Below, one piece after another: positions 9,315-23,507 of a stretch of DNA of 28,234 nucleotides. The DNA comes from a virus. The translations under genes and the position numbers were made by a program. The notes under the pieces were generated by a model. That model was not told the DNA's origin. It searched no databases and saw only the letters and a list, made by a program, of their open reading frames with translations. Position 1 is the stretch's first letter. The number at the start of each line of letters is the position of its first letter. The DNA lies in the IMG/VR virus record IMGVR_UViG_3300048672_001066, positions 1 through 28,234 of that record; one strand, 5' to 3'.

Positions 9315-9343
9315 ATTAGAACCGCTATCTATGGATCATGCAA
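9315..9343 (-). promoter_or_regulatory. Likely sigma70-type promoter for the 9295-8390 genes
   Basis: On the minus strand TTGCAT (9343-9338) is separated by 17 bases from TCTAAT (9320-9315). The -10 box matches the consensus in five of six positions and the -35 box in three. Transcription would start near 9308, just before the GGAGGG ribosome site of the first leftward gene. It overlaps the start of the HNH gene on the other strand. Confidence 0.45.
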
Positions 9344-9867
9344 GCCAAGATATCTGGAAGCCGATTCCAGGCTATAACGGTGCTTATGAAATATCAGAAA
9401 AAGGCGCGGTGCGTAGTTATTCGTTACGCGGATGTCGTGCAAAGTCTGAAGAATACCCCCGCATCATGAAATCGTTTATTCTTTCTGGCTATCCAGCAGT
9501 TTCACTATGTCGAAACGGGAAATATAAACTATTGTTACGGCACCGACTCCTGTTGCTGTCATTCGTCGGACCACCTCCAGATAAACATGAGGCTGCCCAC
9601 CTAGATGGTGACAAAATGAACTGCACTTTAAATAATTTGAGATGGGTTAGCCACAAAGAAAACATGTCTCATAAAGAGGTTCACGGAACTAGCTATAGAG
9701 GCTCAAAACACTCCAGGGCATCCATCACAGAGTTGTGTGTTAAATCCATAAGAGAAAGATTAAACTCAGGAGAATCTATCGAGAGTATTTCTGACTACTA
9801 TGGAGTAAGTAAAAAAACTGTTTACCACATTAAATGCGGGCTTACTTGGTCGTGGCTCAAAAGCTAA
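9331..9867 (+). CDS. Homing endonuclease, NUMOD4 + HNH + C-terminal helix-turn-helix
   Basis: The 178-residue protein has the usual free-standing homing endonuclease order. A NUMOD4 domain (about residues 8-30: W-K-P-I-P-G-Y-N-G-A-Y-E-I-S) is followed by an HNH_3 domain (about 70-115: H-R-L-L-L-L-S-F-V-G ... A-A-H-L-D-G-D-K-M-N ... N-L-R-W-V-S-H-K-E-N). The C terminus holds a helix-turn-helix (I-S-D-Y-Y-G-V-S-K-K-T-V-Y). Such enzymes cut a DNA target in related phages and spread their own gene. It sits alone on the + strand between leftward genes, as expected for an inserted selfish gene. No good ribosome site is seen before ATG 9331. The catalytic His and Asn are present, so it looks intact. 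Confidence 0.85.
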   Translation: MDHASQDIWKPIPGYNGAYEISEKGAVRSYSLRGCRAKSEEYPRIMKSFILSGYPAVSLCRNGKYKLLLRHRLLLLSFVGPPPDKHEAAHLDGDKMNCTLNNLRWVSHKENMSHKEVHGTSYRGSKHSRASITELCVKSIRERLNSGESIESISDYYGVSKKTVYHIKCGLTWSWLKS

Positions 9868-9880
9868 TCACACAAAAATG

Positions 9881-10264
9881 TTAAGTCTTTAGATATGGGC
9901 CAAACGCATTTTCAAGTTTAGAGCAAACAGCGGCTATGCCTTCGATGCTATTCACTAAAAAATAAACCCCTCCAGCCGTCTTTAACTCACGCTCAAATTC
10001 GATCTGACTTCCAGTTTGCTTTCCGCCGGGCCTTTTAACCTCTATAGAGACCCAACGACCATTCCAACATAAAAGCAGATCACTTATTCCGACTCCCACA
10101 TATGGGTTTGTATGTTTTCGAAATGTTCGACGTGTGGTATCAAAGTAACCGCCCATCGGTATTTTTCTAAAAAAAACACCCTTAATTCTCAACCAATCGC
10201 AAATCGATTTCTCAATATCTTTCTCTTTAGGCTTGAAATAAAAAGGTTTCTTCGATCTTGCCAA
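9881..10264 (-). CDS. VRR-NUC domain nuclease
   Basis: The core matches the virus-type replication-repair nuclease of the PD-(D/E)XK superfamily: an early Glu in K-E-K-D-I-E-K-S-I, then G-I-S-D-L-L-L, then S-I-E-V-K-R-P (the E-x-K pair), then Q-x-x-F. Stand-alone phage VRR-NUC proteins are thought to act as junction or flap nucleases during recombination. An open frame reaches a TTG at 10336, but that triplet lies inside a good promoter. The TTG at 10264 (127 residues) is therefore the likelier start, although it lacks a clear ribosome site. The gene runs opposite to the HNH gene, ending 13 bases from it. Confidence 0.7.
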   Translation of the reverse strand: MARSKKPFYFKPKEKDIEKSICDWLRIKGVFFRKIPMGGYFDTTRRTFRKHTNPYVGVGISDLLLCWNGRWVSIEVKRPGGKQTGSQIEFERELKTAGGVYFLVNSIEGIAAVCSKLENAFGPYLKT

Positions 10265-10307
10265 GCTTAGAAATAATTGACCCCCGCAGGGTAGGTTCAC
10301 AAGGATT

Positions 10308-10336
10308 ATTATAACATTATTGGTAAACCTGGACAA
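10308..10336 (-). promoter_or_regulatory. Sigma70-type promoter upstream of the VRR-NUC gene
   Basis: On the minus strand TTGTCC (10336-10331) is followed after exactly 17 bases by a perfect TATAAT (10313-10308). Transcription would start near 10301, giving a leader of roughly 35 bases before the TTG at 10264. This is the best-looking promoter in the window. Confidence 0.6.
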
Positions 10337-10569
10337 ATTTGGGGTGGGATAAAAGCAAGGGCCGGTAGATTAGGCCGACCCTTACGGAGTATTTTCACTA
10401 AAATGAATAAAGAACAATTTATTAATACGCTCAAAAAGAAGGGGCCTCAAGAAAACTTTGCATTGACTTGAGGCCCTCGAAGCATTTTGAATAACTTCAC
10501 GATTTAAGCAAGTTCAGCGTATATCACGCCTTTACTTGCTGCAAAAGAAATTTTTAATGGGAGTGGGAT
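10337..10569. other. Non-coding region with three inverted repeats
   Basis: No convincing gene is seen between the leftward nuclease and the rightward replication-type gene. Hairpin-forming repeats lie at 10357-10383 (nine pairs with one mismatch, loop of about seven), 10442-10476 (GGGCCTCAAG with CTTGAGGCCC, perfect ten bases, loop 15) and 10507-10540. A 22-codon frame (ATG 10403 to TGA 10471) overlaps the second hairpin and has no good ribosome site. The region could hold a rightward promoter with operators, a small RNA or a replication origin. Confidence 0.5.
10507..10540. promoter_or_regulatory. Nested inverted repeat, operator- or hairpin-like
   Basis: AGCAAGT (10507-10513) and ACTTGCT (10534-10540) are exact reverse complements. 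They enclose GCGT-ATATC-ACGC (10517-10529), itself a short palindrome, with spacers of three and four bases. The symmetry suits a dimeric regulator or a two-part RNA hairpin. It lies 30 bases before the start of the replication-type gene, so control of that gene is likely. Confidence 0.45.
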
Positions 10570-11118
10570 ATGCGGGTTAACGTTGAAGATTCAATAATGA
10601 GCGATCAAAGATTTTTGAGGTTTTCCAGAATGCTTGATGGAGACATCGAACTTGCGCTTGGTTGTATGATAAGACTTTGGCATACCGCCGCGGTCTATTG
10701 GGTTCCAAAAAAGAGATGGATTCCGAAGGATATTTTCATCGAATTGAGACACTCCGACCTGATGCTTGAATGCAAACTAGTCGTGAAACGTAAAACGAGT
10801 TACTACGCGATTGGGACAGATGCTAATTTCGCTTGGATTATACAAAAACATGAAGCTGGTTTAATTGGGGCTAGAGCCCGTTGGGGGACTAAAAAGAAGG
10901 TTGACATGAATTATGGCGTAGCTATAGCGGCGCCATGCCGAAACGATGCATCTATCTTATCTATCCCGTCATATCAATCTGATCCCGTCTTTCTATCAAA
11001 TCAATCGCGATCGATCGAATCATCGGTATCCGCAGAACTCGATACTACAGAGGTACCAAGAGAGGTTTTGATTCAAAAAAACGAGGAGAACAAAAAGAAG
11101 ATAGTTCATCTTGATTAA
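10570..11118 (+). CDS. Phage replication-type DNA-binding protein
   Basis: ATG 10570 follows GGGAG at good distance. The N-terminal ~110 residues follow a pattern I recall from phage replisome-organiser or initiator-like proteins: M-R-V-N-V-E-D-S, R-F-L-R-F-S-R-M-L, a helix with A-L-G-C-M-I-R-L-W, W-I-P-K-D-I-F, and F-A-W-I-I-Q-K-H-E-A-G-L-I-G-A-R-A-R-W. The last matches the usual K-x-E-A-G-x-x-G-x-x-A-R element. This part resembles a winged-helix DNA-binding unit. The C-terminal third is Ser-rich and probably flexible. It would act early, recruiting replication proteins or regulating transcription. No helicase or polymerase motif is present. Confidence 0.55.
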   Translation: MRVNVEDSIMSDQRFLRFSRMLDGDIELALGCMIRLWHTAAVYWVPKKRWIPKDIFIELRHSDLMLECKLVVKRKTSYYAIGTDANFAWIIQKHEAGLIGARARWGTKKKVDMNYGVAIAAPCRNDASILSIPSYQSDPVFLSNQSRSIESSVSAELDTTEVPREVLIQKNEENKKKIVHLD

Positions 11119-11123
11119 AAACC

Positions 11124-11162
11124 GGCCAAAGGGCTGGGCTCCCTACGGGCCCGCCCTTGGCC
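11124..11162. terminator. Strong inverted repeat after the replication-type gene
   Basis: GGCCAAAGGGC (11124-11134) pairs with GCCCTTGGCC (11153-11162) with one bulged A, and inner bases GGGCT/CGGGCCC can extend pairing. On the + strand it is followed by AAAAACAAAACCCC, not a U-run. On the minus strand it is followed by GGTTTTTAATC, which suits a leftward terminator, although no leftward gene ends here. It could be an attenuator or an RNA-processing site in the rightward transcript. Confidence 0.4.
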
Positions 11163-11208
11163 AAAAACAAAACCCCACCGAGGGGGGAAAGATCTTGGAG
11201 ACGATCTG

Positions 11209-11436
11209 ATGGAATTAAAGACTTTGACAATTGAGTTAAAGTGTTGTGGTAAGCCATTTCAGAAGATCATGGTGCCTTTACTGAGACCGGGTCGGACGGA
11301 ATATGTCTGGAAGAATGATAATAAGCTTGAGTATGAACGGCATCATGAAATCTGTTTGAAACAACTTTCAAAGGAGTTTTTACAATGGAGCCAAAGAAAG
11401 AAATCATCGGACGATGTGAAGAATGCGGCGAGATGA
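11209..11436 (+). CDS. Small hypothetical protein (75 aa)
   Basis: ATG 11209 is preceded by TTGGAG. The product has a beta-like start with a C-C-G-K motif (L-T-I-E-L-K-C-C-G-K-P-F) and a later H-H-E-I-C, which together could bind a metal. The tail is basic and polar. The end overlaps the next gene by 52 bases, so the true stop region may be less important. No family is recognised. Confidence 0.5.
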   Translation: MELKTLTIELKCCGKPFQKIMVPLLRPGRTEYVWKNDNKLEYERHHEICLKQLSKEFLQWSQRKKSSDDVKNAAR

Positions 11437-12164: not shown

Positions 12165-12319
12165 TGATTCGTTTAGGGGAGAACATTCGGAGGAAGAGAT
12201 TTCGGCGGATGTTGTACCTCTACATCGAAAGAGTAGTAGTGCTGGGTTTATTAATGGGTTTGGGCTGTGCATCTTACGTTGTTTTAAGGGGCTTAATTAG
12301 TTTGATGGGGACGGAATGA
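12164..12319 (+). CDS. Small membrane protein (51 aa)
   Basis: The ATG shares one base with the preceding stop (TAATG) and the TGA overlaps the next ATG (ATGA). GAGAGGGAG lies just upstream. The N-terminal 20 residues are very basic (R-R-K-R-F-R-R), followed by a membrane segment (V-V-V-L-G-L-L-M-G-L-G-C-A-S-Y-V-V-L). It is coupled directly to the first sugar gene. The function is unknown. Confidence 0.5.
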   Translation: MIRLGENIRRKRFRRMLYLYIERVVVLGLLMGLGCASYVVLRGLISLMGTE

Positions 12320-13197
12320 AATTAGTTATAACGGGTGGTTCTGGAAGTCTTGGCAAAGCCATTCTTCACTCGCAAGAGTTTTTAGAATCCCATGGCATCA
12401 GCCGGATTCGAGTCATTTCTAGGGATGAGCAAAAGCAGGTTGCGATCACCCGCGCCTATACAGGAAAAATTCCAATAGATTGTTATCTCGGAGATGTTTC
12501 AGATCGCGAGCGTATGATGTTTGCGCTGAAGGACGCTCATTTCGTTATTCACGCCGCCGCACAGAAACATATCGATAAGTTTGAGCTGGACGTTCCGACC
12601 GGATATAAGACGAACATCTTCGGAACAGAGAGTGTCGCAAGAGGGTTTCTTGAGTCTAAAAACGCGGTGAGTGGAATGTTTATCTCGACCGATAAGAGTG
12701 CACTCCCGATTACAACTTATGGCGTTTCAAAGCTAGCCGCCCAACATCTTTGGCTTTGGCATAATACGTTTCAAAAGGCGATTCGGTATGGAGTTGCCGT
12801 CTATGGGAACATTTTCGGCTCTCGGGGCTCAGTAATCGAGACATGGACGGAGATGGCGAAGAAGGGTGATTCCATTCCCATCACGGATGTTACATGCACT
12901 CGATTCTTTATGCTCATCCCGGATGCGGCCCACTTTGTTCTGAGGAGTTTATTTCGAAACGAAAGAAAAGTTCATATTCCTGAGATGAAATCATCAGAGA
13001 TGCTCACACTTGCTCAAGTTATTTGGGAGCATCACAACAAATCGAAGTTTAAATATCATGTTACGGGAATGCGAAGCATAGAGAAAGTTCACGAGATATT
13101 GGAGCCCTATGGAAAATCAAGCTTTGAAACAGAACGATTCTCAAAAAAAGAACTCAAAGAAATGTACGCTGTGTGGCTTAGTAAAAGAAATATCTGA
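12316..13197 (+). CDS. Nucleotide-sugar 4,6-dehydratase, PseB/FlaA1-like
   Basis: This short-chain dehydrogenase-type enzyme has the nucleotide-binding loop G7-G-S-G-S-L-G13, the block S-R-D-E-x-K-Q typical of the FlaA1/PseB/CapD group, and H-A-A-A-Q-K-H-I. The catalytic set is T125-D126-K127 with Y135-x-x-x-K139. The Asp-Lys ... Tyr spacing is that of PseB, which converts UDP-GlcNAc to a 4-keto-6-deoxy sugar (dehydration with C5 inversion). At 293 residues it is shorter than typical members (about 330). It starts the sugar operon, overlapping the preceding stop by ATGA. The product would feed an aminotransferase and an acetyltransferase, both encoded downstream. The exact sugar substrate is inferred, not shown. 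Confidence 0.8.
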   Translation: MKLVITGGSGSLGKAILHSQEFLESHGISRIRVISRDEQKQVAITRAYTGKIPIDCYLGDVSDRERMMFALKDAHFVIHAAAQKHIDKFELDVPTGYKTNIFGTESVARGFLESKNAVSGMFISTDKSALPITTYGVSKLAAQHLWLWHNTFQKAIRYGVAVYGNIFGSRGSVIETWTEMAKKGDSIPITDVTCTRFFMLIPDAAHFVLRSLFRNERKVHIPEMKSSEMLTLAQVIWEHHNKSKFKYHVTGMRSIEKVHEILEPYGKSSFETERFSKKELKEMYAVWLSKRNI

Positions 13198-13792
13198 GTT
13201 TTATCTTTGTTTGAAGCGCGGAAAGAAGGTTCGTAAAAGTCGTTGCGCCGCATGTTGTCGAGCCATGCGTAATGAGTACCGCCTTAAAAATATTGAAAAA
13301 CAAAGAGCCTATGAAAGACATAAATATCATACAGTTTTGAAGTATCTTAGAAAAAACGACCCTGAAGTTAAGGCGAAGTGGAGAAAATATTTACAAAATC
13401 ATCGAAAGAAAAATCCTGAAAAAGCAAAGGCTCGTTATACAATTTCGAATGCTAAGCGTTGGAAAATAAAAACATTTACAATTTTGCCTTGCTCCACTTG
13501 TGGGTCTAAAAAATCTGAAGCCCATCATCCTGATTATACAAAGCCGTTAGAAATCGTGTGGCTTTGTCATCCGTGTCATATAAAATTACACAATGAAACA
13601 TCCGGCCAGACTCATGGGGCCAAAACGAGTCTCAACCGAGATGCTGGACTGGTTTCTAAAAAGCCCTCAATTTCGAGAGCTTCTTCTAAAAGATCCAAGT
13701 CCTCTTCCACTTCTCGCAACATGCTCAATTCAAATAGATACGATGGTGGAAAATCCAAAACTGTATCTCACATTCAAAAAGGTGGAGCATGA
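13109..13792 (+). CDS. HNH endonuclease-type protein inserted in the sugar operon
   Basis: The N-terminal part has a zinc finger (C-T-L-C-G, then C-A-A-C-C), followed by a basic helical linker with Y-R-L-K-N-I-E-K repeats. The HNH core is C-S-T-C-G ... A-H-H-P-D-Y-T-K-P-L ... L-C-H-P-C-H-I-K-L-H (about residues 127-161), a well-known phage HNH type. The remaining ~65 residues are Ser/Lys-rich and look like low-quality coding, as another frame (13593-13850) reads better there. The first 89 bases overlap the end of the dehydratase gene. Its lack of relation to sugar metabolism suggests a mobile homing-type gene. The TGA overlaps the NeuB-like ATG. Confidence 0.7.
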   Translation: MENQALKQNDSQKKNSKKCTLCGLVKEISEFYLCLKRGKKVRKSRCAACCRAMRNEYRLKNIEKQRAYERHKYHTVLKYLRKNDPEVKAKWRKYLQNHRKKNPEKAKARYTISNAKRWKIKTFTILPCSTCGSKKSEAHHPDYTKPLEIVWLCHPCHIKLHNETSGQTHGAKTSLNRDAGLVSKKPSISRASSKRSKSSSTSRNMLNSNRYDGGKSKTVSHIQKGGA

Positions 13793-13850
13793 ATACAAGG
13801 ATTATCGCCGAGGTCGGAAGTACCCACCAAGGATCAATCGAACTGATTAA
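13593..13850 (+). CDS. Possible small gene in an alternative frame under the HNH 3' end
   Basis: This 85-residue frame overlaps the HNH C terminus by 200 bases and the start of the NeuB-like gene by 62 bases. Its product looks like a normal soluble protein (M-L-D-W-F-L-K-S-P-Q-F-R-E-L-L-L-K-D-P; L-Y-L-T-F-K-K-V-E-H-E-Y) with well-spaced hydrophobic residues. The HNH frame across the same bases is Ser/Lys-rich and patternless. No good ribosome site precedes the ATG. It could be a real small gene, or the remainder of a gene displaced by the HNH insertion. Confidence 0.35.
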   Translation: MKHPARLMGPKRVSTEMLDWFLKSPQFRELLLKDPSPLPLLATCSIQIDTMVENPKLYLTFKKVEHEYKDYRRGRKYPPRINRTD

Positions 13851-14439
13851 ACGAGCCATAGATCACTGCGTATTGCTTCGAATTGACGCCATTAAGTTTC
13901 AACTATTCTCAAAAAATTCGGAGGCGGCAAAAGCAAATGTCTGGCTTGATCCGGTAATTTATCACGAGGCATCAGAGTACGCAAAAGAGGCGGCCCTTCA
14001 GTGCGGGGCTTCTGTGTTCGATGAGTACTCCCTTGATTTCCTTCTTTCGACAGATCCGTCGTTTGTGAAGTTCGCCTATTCTCAGAAGGGACAGCGCCCG
14101 TGGATTCAAAGAGTTCTCGATTGCGGGATTGAAACGATTGTTTCTTGTGATGTGATGTCGGATAAGAAAGTGCCAATAGGATGCACTCGCTTATTTTGCA
14201 TCCCACAGTATCCTGTTTATTTTCAGATCTGTTTCGATGAACTCTTCCCGAGGTTTGACGGCTACTCTGATCACAGCATGGGATTTGAGCAAACAGTGAA
14301 TGCAGTTTCAGCGGGTGCGAGGGTGATAGAAAAACATATAAGAATAACTAGTTCTTATAATTGTCCTGATGATAACTTCGCTCTTTCACTCGCTGAATTT
14401 TCTACAATGGTCGCTGCCCTTCGGAGCATTCGACAATGA
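13789..14439 (+). CDS. Short NeuB-type nonulosonic acid synthase
   Basis: The product matches the TIM-barrel domain of sialic-acid/pseudaminic-acid/legionaminic-acid synthases. Landmarks are I-A-E8-V-G-S-T-H13-Q-G-S, D-A-I-K36-F-Q, I-P-Q-Y-P-V-Y, G-Y-S-D-H-S-M-G, G-A-R-V-I-E-K-H and D-D-N-F-A-L-S. These enzymes condense phosphoenolpyruvate with a six-carbon sugar to form a nine-carbon acid. It is only 216 residues, against about 340 in the family. Part of the barrel is shortened and the C-terminal antifreeze-like (SAF) domain, which lends an arginine to the neighbouring active site, is absent. It may still be active or may act on a different sugar. ATG 13789 follows GGTGGAG. The stop overlaps the next ATG. 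Confidence 0.75.
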   Translation: MNTRIIAEVGSTHQGSIELIKRAIDHCVLLRIDAIKFQLFSKNSEAAKANVWLDPVIYHEASEYAKEAALQCGASVFDEYSLDFLLSTDPSFVKFAYSQKGQRPWIQRVLDCGIETIVSCDVMSDKKVPIGCTRLFCIPQYPVYFQICFDELFPRFDGYSDHSMGFEQTVNAVSAGARVIEKHIRITSSYNCPDDNFALSLAEFSTMVAALRSIRQ

Positions 14440-15146
14440 TTTTACTTATCGGAGGAAATGGTTCCATAGGGCGCCGTTACCAGTCTGTCATTCGCGCTCT
14501 CGAATATCCGTTTGAAATCTACGATAACCCGAAGCATAAGGCCGGCGATCCTTGGAATAAGAACGTAAGCCACGCACTAATTTGTACCCCAACCGAGACA
14601 CATACATTTTGGGCTAAGGAATGTGCGAGAGCTGAGATTCCATTTCTCTGTGAGAAGCCATTTTCTAAAAGACCGTCAGATGCGCTTCGGTTTAAAGATG
14701 CGAAGGCTTTCGTTGTAAACAATTATAATTTTCTTCCCTGTGCTCAAGTGCCGAGAAAGATTTATTACAACTTCTATAACACGGGTAAAGATGGTCTCGT
14801 ATGGGATGTCTGCCAGCTCGTCTATCTCGCGTGGAAGAATGGCGTTGAACTTGAGGTTACAAGAGATTCTTTTTGGTGGGATATGAAATGGGGCCAGCAT
14901 CAGGTTCCCTATAACGATATTGAACGAAGTTATTACTACATGGTGAAAGCGTTTATGACAGGGGATGCGACGAATCTATGGGATATGCATGACGCAGCCC
15001 ACATGAGTGAGATGTGCAACGAACTGAACGAAAGAGTGGTGAAAGATGTCGAGTACTTTATCTGGAAGCCGAATCCTGGTCGGAATACAAGCCAGGAGCG
15101 GATCTTCTCGCTTGCCGCAAAAGGTCTTTCAAAAGATCGGGGATAA
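14436..15146 (+). CDS. Gfo/Idh/MocA-type oxidoreductase
   Basis: A Rossmann motif at the N terminus (L-I-G6-G-N-G-S-I-G12-R) binds NAD(P). The family blocks I-C-T-P-T-E-T-H (about residues 49-56) and C-E-K-P (about 72-75, with the usual catalytic-site Lys) follow. The C-terminal substrate domain is compact and rich in Trp and Tyr. At 236 residues it is much shorter than the usual ~330. In nonulosonic-acid and lipopolysaccharide gene sets, members oxidise or reduce a ring or side-chain hydroxyl of a sugar. Here it probably modifies an intermediate or the final acid. ATGA overlap links it to the synthase gene. The last 101 bases overlap the cytidylyltransferase gene. Confidence 0.75.
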   Translation: MILLIGGNGSIGRRYQSVIRALEYPFEIYDNPKHKAGDPWNKNVSHALICTPTETHTFWAKECARAEIPFLCEKPFSKRPSDALRFKDAKAFVVNNYNFLPCAQVPRKIYYNFYNTGKDGLVWDVCQLVYLAWKNGVELEVTRDSFWWDMKWGQHQVPYNDIERSYYYMVKAFMTGDATNLWDMHDAAHMSEMCNELNERVVKDVEYFIWKPNPGRNTSQERIFSLAAKGLSKDRG

Positions 15147-15753
15147 AACACTTCTTCAGTGGGTTTATGATGCGGGAGTTGAGGCAGAGCGTATGCTTCG
15201 GGCTAAGAACATCACAGCCGAAGCGATGATCCTTGGGCCTGAGAAGGATATGGAGCTAGAGCGATTTTGTGATGAGAATTTACTCAAGTCCTGGTTCCCC
15301 GCATTTGTCAGAGAAGACGATCTAATCCTTCGCTATCTGAAAACCGCAAGAGAAAGAAACTTCACTCACATTGTTCGAGTCACATCGGATTGCTGGCAGA
15401 TGAATCCTGAAATAATCGTTCGAGTTGTTGAGCTGATGCTAAATGAGAAAGCTGATTACGTATCAAACACCACCACGCGAAGCTTCATTGAAGGGTTAGA
15501 CTGCCAGGCTTGCTCAGTAAAGGCGCTCGCCTGGTTTGATCGTGAGCAGACGAAAAGACGCGAGCATCCTTTTATCGACTTTGACAGAAATGAAAGTGTA
15601 CGAACTGATTTCGAGTACGCAGGATTTAAATATTTGGAGCTTCTGAATTCTTCAGCAGAATGGATGATCAGAACCAGCATCGATGATGAAGCTGATTTGA
15701 AGCGAGCAAGGGAGTTATATGCAAAAGCCAGCGGATCAGGATTGGTTAAATAG
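15046..15753 (+). CDS. SpsF/NeuA-type CMP-sugar cytidylyltransferase
   Basis: The product has the signature of the SpsF group of cytidylyltransferases near the N terminus: I-Q-A-R17-S-G-S-S-R22-L-P-Q-K26-V. This loop binds CTP. Further on come H-I-V-R-V-T-S-D-C-W, with the metal-binding Asp, and E-G-L-D in place of the usual G-x-D/E. The 235-residue length is normal. The role would be activation of a nonulosonic acid with CMP, the step needed before transfer. ATG 15046 makes a 101-base overlap with the oxidoreductase gene. This is unusually long for the operon but required, because the CTP loop begins only ten residues in. Confidence 0.8.
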   Translation: MSSTLSGSRILVGIQARSGSSRLPQKVFQKIGDKTLLQWVYDAGVEAERMLRAKNITAEAMILGPEKDMELERFCDENLLKSWFPAFVREDDLILRYLKTARERNFTHIVRVTSDCWQMNPEIIVRVVELMLNEKADYVSNTTTRSFIEGLDCQACSVKALAWFDREQTKRREHPFIDFDRNESVRTDFEYAGFKYLELLNSSAEWMIRTSIDDEADLKRARELYAKASGSGLVK

Positions 15754-16912
15754 ATCACGTGACGTATGGGCACAAAGTTTCCCGGCCACGAACAGCAAAC
15801 GCAGCACACACTACATTCAGAACATTTACCCCACAGTGGTTACGGGTGGGGTTGGCTGTTATATGTTGGGCGCTCATGATGCCCGCTATCTTGACTTTGT
15901 CTGTGGTCTTGGCGCTGTTAGCCTTTCTTACTCGAATCAAAAAGTCATCGAAGCCGTAACCAGACAAGCGCAAAAGGGATCAAGCTTTAGTCTTCCGCAT
16001 ACGCTTGAGATTGAAACGGCTGAGCATATCCGCGGCCTTGTTCCCGGTGCTGAGAGAATTCGATTCCTTAAGAATGGAGATGACGCCTCAAGAGCTGCTG
16101 TTCGAATTGCACGGGCCTACACAAACCGAACCAGAGTCTTAAGTGACGGCTATCATGGCCACTCTGACTTATTCACCTCGCTTACAGAACCGGCGTTGGG
16201 CGTGAAAGATAAGCATGAAATTTATCCCTTAGAGGAAGATAACATTGATTCAGCCGTGGCTTGTGTAATCGTCGAAGCTCTAAAGCTCAGTGACAAGCCT
16301 CAATACATGCAATGGTTAAAGAAGATCAGGGAGAAGTGTAGAGAAGTCGGGGCCGTGTTTGTAATGGATGAGATCGTAACAAACTGCCGAGTATCAAACC
16401 TTACCGTTTCTAAGTGGTGGGATATTGACCCCGATCTGATTCTGCTTGGAAAAGGCATAGCCAATGGCTGGCCGATTGCTGTTATCGGGGGAAAGAAAGA
16501 TTTAATGAATTGTGGGGAGTACTTCATTTCAACAACATTCGGCGGATGTGCTGTTGATCTCGCCGCTTGTAACGCCACATTAACCGAGATTGAAAAGCGA
16601 TCCTTGGTTGATTTGGTATTCTACGGAAAGCGTTTAGTAGATAGGTTGAACGCCCTACACCCTGAAATCAAATGGGAGGGGTGGGGTACTCGTGCTCAAT
16701 TGAATGTTGAAAATCCAACAACACAGCTCTTTCTGCAAGAAGCGGTTCGAGCCGGTATTTTCTTTGGGAAGGCGTTCTTTTTCAACTTCGCGATGTTAGA
16801 GGCTAATTTAGAAGAATTTGTTCTCAACACATGCCGAGCGATTGTAGAGCGGATTAAACGAGGGGAAGTTCGTATGGAAGGACTGCCCCCGCACATGAGC
16901 TTTAAGCGATGA
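15719..16912 (+). CDS. Class III PLP-dependent aminotransferase (GSA-aminomutase-like)
   Basis: The 397-residue enzyme resembles glutamate-1-semialdehyde aminomutase. Features are F-L-K-N-G-D-D-A-S-R-A-A-V-R-I-A-R-A (phosphate-binding helix), G-Y-H-G-H-S-D, F-V-M-D-E-I-V-T (the Asp that holds the PLP ring nitrogen) and L-G-K245-G-I-A-N-G-W-P with the PLP-binding lysine. Members in surface-glycan clusters add an amino group to a keto sugar instead of serving haem synthesis. The context, with a dehydratase making a 4-keto sugar and an acetyltransferase next door, supports that. Classic pseudaminic and legionaminic pathways use a DegT-type aminotransferase, so this is a non-standard choice. ATG 15719 follows GGGAG. 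Confidence 0.85.
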   Translation: MQKPADQDWLNRSRDVWAQSFPATNSKRSTHYIQNIYPTVVTGGVGCYMLGAHDARYLDFVCGLGAVSLSYSNQKVIEAVTRQAQKGSSFSLPHTLEIETAEHIRGLVPGAERIRFLKNGDDASRAAVRIARAYTNRTRVLSDGYHGHSDLFTSLTEPALGVKDKHEIYPLEEDNIDSAVACVIVEALKLSDKPQYMQWLKKIREKCREVGAVFVMDEIVTNCRVSNLTVSKWWDIDPDLILLGKGIANGWPIAVIGGKKDLMNCGEYFISTTFGGCAVDLAACNATLTEIEKRSLVDLVFYGKRLVDRLNALHPEIKWEGWGTRAQLNVENPTTQLFLQEAVRAGIFFGKAFFFNFAMLEANLEEFVLNTCRAIVERIKRGEVRMEGLPPHMSFKR

Positions 16913-23114: not shown

Positions 23115-23240
23115 CGTTATAATTTTAGAAGTATTCATTTAGAATCAATAAGGGGGGAAGATTGATAGACAGCCGACATAAGATCCGATCATCGAACTTC
23201 CATAATCACCTTCCCCCCAACAACTCGAAGGGGAAATAAA
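23115..23240. promoter_or_regulatory. Longest gap in the late operon, with an inverted repeat
   Basis: GGGGGGAAG (23152-23160) and CTTCCCCCC (23210-23218) are exact reverse complements separated by 49 bases. A perfect TATAAT lies at 23118-23123, but the matching -35 is poor. Since late genes here are otherwise nearly contiguous, the 126-base gap probably carries a promoter, a processing hairpin or an attenuator. Confidence 0.4.
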
Positions 23241-23507
23241 ATGCAAGATCCAAACGCGCAACCCGCGCCTGAACAAGGCGGAGATTCCGCAGTCAATGTC
23301 ATGATGAAAGTAAAAGAAGTTCTGGCCAAACTTCAAGAGGTCGCTCCGAATGAGTTTCCTCCTGAAGCACAAAAACTTCTTCAAACCGCTGCGGCTTCCT
23401 ATGACGGATTTCTTCAAATGCTGATGGGAAAACCTGAACAAGGTCAACCCGCACAAGCGCCACAAACTGAAATGGCTGCTGGTGCAAAGCAGGCTGTTCC
23501 TGCATGA
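23241..23507 (+). CDS. Small head-module protein with C-terminal E-M-A-A-G motif (88 aa)
   Basis: ATG 23241 follows AAGGGGAAA. The product is acidic and helical in the middle (V-K-E-V-L-A-K-L-Q-E-V; L-L-Q-T-A-A-A-S-Y-D-G-F-L) with Gln/Pro-rich ends. It ends Q-T-E-M-A-A-G-A-K-Q-A-V-P-A. The same terminal pattern recurs in the next gene. It sits just before the scaffold, so an assembly role is plausible. No family is recognised. Confidence 0.55.
   Translation: MQDPNAQPAPEQGGDSAVNVMMKVKEVLAKLQEVAPNEFPPEAQKLLQTAAASYDGFLQMLMGKPEQGQPAQAPQTEMAAGAKQAVPA

Follow-up and report, generated by a model that had tools for sequence, protein, structure and literature searches.

Antisense RNAs of the RNAI/CopA type, known from plasmid replication, are about 100 nt long, combine stem-loops with a terminator and lie opposite a leader. 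Among phages, the OOP RNA of bacteriophage lambda is, in the passages of PMC5869508 that describe it, transcribed leftward from the promoter pO and ends at the intrinsic terminator tO; it opposes rightward early transcription and overlaps the message of a rightward gene (PMC5869508). Its length is given as 77 nt in a table of PMC12197685. The put RNAs of bacteriophage HK022, as outlined in a section of PMC9378689, are about 70 nt long, consist of two stem-loops located downstream of the early promoters and act on later terminators; their defining property is that the RNA by itself suppresses termination downstream.

The locus considered here lies in a 28,234-base virus record in IMG/VR, all of which was analysed and is referred to as the window. 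Its three clustered hairpins are read as forming the end, and probably also the main part, of a short leftward antisense-type RNA with tandem terminators in a divergent control region, a reading that has an even chance of being correct. Such an RNA would resemble the RNAI/CopA type in its length of about 100 nt, its stem-loops and terminator, and its position opposite a leader, but the gene downstream is not recognisable as a replication gene. The resemblance to the pO-oop-tO unit, as far as the cited passages describe it, would lie in a short leftward RNA with a terminator at its 3′ end, placed opposite rightward early transcription, and a terminator is indeed found at that end. OOP, in the material cited, shares 52 bases with the C-terminal end of cII, whereas the overlap of the proposed RNA would be with a 5′ leader. 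The pair of stem-loops near an early promoter also recalls HK022 putL and putR as outlined above, except that in the phage region a terminator follows at once. If the reading holds, the region would work like OOP, with no homology or sequence relation claimed, and is best read as a switch element of a kind already known from other phages.

Most of the left arm of the window (6.1-10.3 kb) is taken up by a leftward operon with a nuclease gene first and a Sak-type annealing protein inside, as identified by PHROG and Pfam scans. Rightward genes, including terminase, portal and capsid, run from 10,570 onward, and the hairpins separate the two sets. The best explanation for the hairpin region is that an uncultivated tailed phage has its divergent early control region here. 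By protein comparison, the phage family is distant from the named phage records that were searched, because the portal protein matched none of them, the capsid protein 12 and the large terminase 822, all below 60% identity. The nuclease gene (9881..10264, minus strand, TTG start assumed), which we take to be VRR-NUC-like, matches phrog_93 (endonuclease, 1.2e-16) and phrog_5702 (Holliday junction resolvase, 1.2e-5) and has no Pfam match. The first rightward gene (10570..11118, plus strand) belongs to no recognisable family. The preliminary description had called it replication-type, for which no support was obtained: Pfam gave no match, the sole PHROG match is meaningless (E 0.19), the PDB-sequence matches are catalase-peroxidases only (E about 0.8), and neither tblastn of phage records, nor an IMG/VR pattern search, nor the three related records searched contained a relative. 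Its AlphaFold model is uninformative (pLDDT 31).

Related genomes proved few. Single IMG/VR queries with the 10570 protein, the terminase and the nuclease found none, while the major capsid protein matched three IMG/VR contigs at 61-72% identity. A capsid alignment added three contigs and a portal alignment one, for a total of seven other contigs in IMG/VR; the same alignments found none among genome contigs. The nuclease gene occurs in two of the three related records searched, at the loci L009 (genome G002) and L008 (genome G003), where the proteins are 41-42% identical to that of the window over the alignment. A nuclease alignment run through IMG/VR returned only these two records, and tblastn of the seven contigs, covering all but the initial 3,071 bases of a 22-kb contig, placed the gene only in the L008 and L009 contigs. 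The region is present in three genomes only: the window, L008 and L009.

All three inverted repeats of the preliminary description lie where it had placed them. The one at 10442-10476 pairs perfectly over 10 bp and encloses a 15-nt loop, and that at 10507-10540 is a two-part palindrome. The repeat at 10357-10383 is also present but imperfect on the plus strand; there its arms mismatch, whereas the minus strand forms an uninterrupted 11-bp stem (10355-10385) by means of G-U pairs. The interval 10265-10569 is non-coding, as described, in that no open reading frame of at least 60 aa enters it except the nuclease frame, open to 10336. Perfect stems with loops of 3-30 nt are about as frequent in the window as in 20 random sequences, with 13 observed against 11.3 expected for stems of at least 8 bp and 2 against 0.85 for at least 10 bp. 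Folding separates the strands further: 10290-10569 has a z of -5.36 leftward, a value that 0 of 200 shuffles matched, and of -1.82 rightward, matched by 7 of 200. Taken singly, the hairpins are not beyond chance; the cluster is unusual on one strand. The random sequences behind the stem counts, the terminator scans, and the alignment and separate folds of the conserved block described below come from a first-order Markov model and differ in this from exact dinucleotide shuffles.

That this hairpin density is unique in the window, as had been stated, is too strong. In a G+C-corrected tiling with 280-base tiles, the nearest tile to the hairpin region (10221-10500, which leaves out the third hairpin) ranks 4 of 200 on the minus strand and 24 of 200 on the plus strand, and the difference between strands ranks only 35 of 200. 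The three tiles ahead of it on the minus strand (23241, 23101 and 13581) overlap open reading frames taken as coding. A stabler hairpin also lies at 11122-11163. Very stable among the hairpins listed (-31.2 kcal/mol), it has a leftward U-run next to it and sits between two rightward genes; a small CCCC..GGGG hairpin with a leftward U-rich tail follows at about 11170-11190. Both look like terminators that face against the genes. No Rfam family of 4227 reached its gathering score in the window or at L003, L004, L005, L008 and L009, Rfam by E-value gave only sub-threshold matches (best E 0.54 and 0.11) with none in a further scan, and no tRNA or tmRNA was found.

A G+C-rich hairpin directly before a U-run on the transcribed strand, which characterises intrinsic terminators, is found leftward at both 10442-10476 and 10355-10385. 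The first, here called SL3 (10432..10476, minus strand), comprises the stem GGGCCUCAAG/CUUGAGGCCC at 10442-10476 followed by CUUCUUUUUG. It has a terminator score of -25.6, ranks second of 33 candidates in the window, and folds at -20.3 leftward vs -18.7 rightward. The second, H1 (10349..10385, minus strand), is a tandem terminator-like hairpin with the 11-bp stem GUAAGGGUCGG/CCGGCCCUUGC at 10355-10385, then UUUUAU; it scores -24.4, ranks fourth of 33, and folds at -17.5 leftward vs -12.2 rightward. The first-ranked candidate is inside the open reading frame 23241-23507, taken as coding. These ranks come from a stricter scan that superseded a lenient first one, which gave too many hits. The hairpin at 11122-11163, more stable than both SL3 and H1 among the hairpins listed in the lenient scan, is absent from the stricter one, we think because the latter demands a stem ending right at the U-run; counting it drops SL3 and H1 by one rank. 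SL3 and H1 are likely leftward intrinsic terminators.

The same arrangement recurs in the relatives. Upstream of the leftward operon, a leftward hairpin at 13099-13142 in L008 is the top of 19 candidates in 16.6 kb, and one at 12805-12841 in L009 is the top of 22 in 15.9 kb; both score higher than SL3 and H1. When each intergenic region was compared with random sequences of like dinucleotide make-up, its best leftward terminator was reached by 3 of 300 for the window, 4 of 300 for L009 and 0 of 300 for L008, and its best rightward terminator by 300, 28 and 207 of 300, respectively. All four terminators (SL3 and H1 of the window, SL3 of L009 and that of L008) fold better leftward than rightward. 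The number of sites is less telling. At the loosest cut, terminator-like sites over the whole stretch number 13 vs 15 random in the window, 3 vs 7 in L008 and 18 vs 10 in L009 (six random sequences each), and are thus not clearly above random. Leftward sites are the commoner among the 14 listed for each genome (10 in L008, 10 in L009 and 8 in the window). It is place and direction together, not the number of sites, that carry the terminator argument. Leftward terminators beyond chance occupy the same place and direction in three genomes, and a block around them is shared by homology with one relative. G-U asymmetry, combined with a few relatives, can thereby give bare-looking hairpins a strand and a direction. 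Directly before the L008 terminator lies a long hairpin (13010-13095, -50.5 kcal/mol leftward), where the listed open reading frames are at most 54 aa.

The block shared with L009 extends from ATTAAAAA, just before the third hairpin, to the U-run. Window positions 10434-10558 (minus strand) align with L009 12734-12846 (plus strand) with a Smith-Waterman score of 25, compared to a mean of 11.1, a standard deviation of 1.4 and a maximum of 18 for 300 random pairs. The blastn match between the two has an E of 3e-6 in a three-sequence search, and blastn of the block at a stricter cut-off gave no hit. Judged by these two comparisons, on which the assignment rests, the blocks are homologous. No sequence homology to either block was found in L008. 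The block spans a first stem-loop SL1 (the third hairpin), a small middle stem-loop SL2 (10478..10499, minus strand, UGAAGU..GCUUCG) and SL3, with counterparts in L009 at 12749-12786, 12785-12806 and 12805-12846, respectively; H1 is outside it. Each block folds alone into SL1, SL2 and a terminator, and SL2 (10475-10501) folds at -5.2 leftward vs -1.4 rightward.

Conservation of the stems in relatives, proposed earlier as a check, is seen in L009 by sequence and in L008 for the terminator by position and direction only, and the refuting outcome named with it, a lack of such conservation, did not occur. Covariation, proposed alongside it, was counted in two ways. Among 28 pairs taken from the two genomes' own folds, in a register hand-set to structure and with bulged bases excluded, 14 are unchanged, 4 differ on one side, 8 differ on both and 2 are broken in L009. 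In a plain MAFFT alignment, both bases differ in 2 of 11 pairs, a count reached by 124 of 500 shuffles. The covariation is suggestive only. A DNA pattern of the conserved loop retrieved only the L009 record from IMG/VR, and a covariance model (R1) run over 10 sources returned, beyond its own two member sequences, a single hit at E 4.4. An ATG frame of 22 codons at 10403-10471, noticed by eye, was considered as a leader peptide and rejected, as it ends inside SL3 and has no counterpart by eye in L009.

Next to its block, L009 carries about 420 bases (12311-12730) with no listed open reading frame above 47 aa within; the stretch is structured, has no Rfam match and could be a longer non-coding RNA. 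Part of it (12401-12700, G+C 0.51-0.59) is richer in G+C than its surroundings. Further off, at 10964-11291, a long simple repeat with frames of the Ala-Met and Gly-Asn-Gly-Asp type lies between rightward genes of the same genome.

The promoters suggested by sequence differ in strength. The leftward promoter of the preliminary description is borne out: the site at 10308..10336 (minus strand, TTGTCC-17-TATAAT, TG before the -10) scores 12.6, above the best of 20 plain letter shuffles (10.1), which served as background for all promoter scores. It is preceded by the tandem terminators SL3 and H1, and since it comes after both, a start of its own is available to the nuclease operon in the window. 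The candidate rightward promoter (10463..10492, plus strand, TTGACT-18-TTGAAT) has a -35 that spans the SL3 loop into the stem. It scores 9.1, compared to 8.8 for the mean best of 20 shuffles, and is the best rightward candidate in the window. The homologous site in L009, TTGACT-17-TTTTAT, is likewise the best rightward candidate there (9.6), with an identical -35 running from loop into stem. As neither score beats shuffles, only the coincidence of homologous sites speaks for this promoter. Upstream of SL1, no leftward sigma-70 match above background was found in the window, and the sigma-70 consensus may not be that of the host. Immediately upstream of SL1, ATTAAAAA (10551..10558, minus strand) is a weak candidate -10 of the leftward RNA that is identical in L009; it lies outside the eight best sigma-70-like sites of its strand. 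The best leftward candidate in L009 (9.6, not above shuffles) is inside SL1, and an RNA starting there would keep only SL2 and the terminator.

These elements can be assembled into a non-coding RNA of about 113 nt (10432..10544, minus strand). We infer that such an RNA is made and that its 5′ end is near 10544. Transcription would proceed leftward from 10544 to 10432 through SL1 and SL2 and stop at SL3, with H1 as a backup directly ahead of the promoter that serves the leftward nuclease/recombination operon. The terminators would keep leftward transcription from this RNA out of the nuclease operon. The first ~46 nt of the RNA would be complementary to the very beginning of the rightward early message, although the overlap implies this complementarity only for a rightward start near 10499, where the promoter is weak. 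The RNA would probably act in cis, with either pairing or transcriptional interference tuning rightward expression; antisense control of the rightward message is likewise inferred. That a short leftward RNA ends at the terminators has about the same chance of being right as wrong. SL1 (10507..10540, no strand assigned, AGCAAGT..GCGT..ACGC..ACTTGCT) is proposed to serve both as its first stem-loop and as a hairpin or operator just past the candidate rightward start. Among the functions the preliminary description had offered, a regulatory switch region and a structured small RNA are favoured by the strand-biased fold, the two leftward terminators and the recurrence of the arrangement in two relatives, with one of which part of it is homologous. 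If the RNA is made, early control in a family far from the named phage records searched would include an element at the RNA level.

Several observations run against the short RNA. No promoter for it was found, and SL1 in L009 folds better rightward (-14.5) than leftward (-9.4), while SL1 of the window folds better leftward. In L008, where a pair of small leftward genes lies upstream of the terminator and 23 nt separate its end from the ATG of the nuclease, it may act as an operon terminator or an attenuator. This last point leads to the strongest competitor, an attenuator or antitermination leader, which is possible but not favoured. Leftward transcripts would start further right, stop early at the terminators and later read into the nuclease operon by means of an antiterminator, which could be a protein or, as in HK022 put, the RNA. 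In each of the three genomes the leftward operon has terminators ahead of it, the terminator follows two stem-loops in both the window and L009, and in L008 the distance from the terminator end (13142) to the ATG (13166) is too short for a promoter, with none of the eight best listed leftward promoter-like sites nearby. In the window, however, the promoter 10336-10308 lies past both terminators and could serve the operon alone, and no antiterminator gene was recognised among the scanned proteins.

Plain insulation, by which the terminators only halt stray leftward transcription before the leftward promoter and no functional RNA exists, is rather unlikely. SL1 would then be an operator or the 5′-end hairpin of the rightward message, in keeping with its place just past the candidate rightward start in both the window and L009 and with its rightward fold in L009. 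Its four half-sites are mutually alike by eye, but a half-site search yielded no further copies above chance (7 matches vs 5.5 expected), and the pattern was matched exactly only by the SL1 arm that had supplied it. The terminator-like hairpin at 11122-11163, with no acceptable leftward gene before it, also fits insulation. Against it, the homology with L009 forms a single block that takes in SL1, SL2 and the terminator and exceeds the needs of a bare terminator.

The short-RNA reading also has a more ambitious form, which is doubtful: a new phage small-RNA family built of SL1, SL2 and the terminator, with a conserved AGUCAAU..AAAG at the terminator loop, whose terminator would be interlocked with the rightward early promoter. 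As the rightward -35 lies in the terminator hairpin, synthesis of the RNA and firing of the rightward promoter would be mutually exclusive. If true, this would be an early switch without a repressor protein.

An origin of replication with extrudable hairpins, another function offered by the preliminary description, is very improbable. The region is non-coding, hairpin-rich and close to a point where cumulative G+C skew has a local minimum, as would suit an origin, but that minimum, near 10 kb, exists because gene direction changes there, and the skew tracks gene direction. Short two-copy repeats were found and no iterons, and no initiator or other replication protein was recognised next door, which leaves room for an iteron-less origin. 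In addition, the terminator hairpins depend on the G-U pairs of one strand, which points to RNA. Least credible of all are chance hairpins in an ordinary intergenic region, since the perfect-stem count of the window is as expected but terminator direction and place repeat in three genomes and the block is homologous to L009.

Other features of the window concern its gene content. An HNH/NUMOD4 homing-endonuclease-like gene (9331-9867, plus strand; Pfam and PHROG) sits amid the leftward genes of the nuclease operon. A row of sugar-pathway-like genes occupies 12316-16912 with matches to Polysacc_synt_2, NeuB, GFO_IDH_MocA and Aminotran_3, and similar open reading frames are present in L008 and L009. 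Finally, at 23152-23218, a nine-base inverted repeat, GGGGGGAAG/CTTCCCCCC, with its arms about 50 bases apart, lies directly before a rightward open reading frame.
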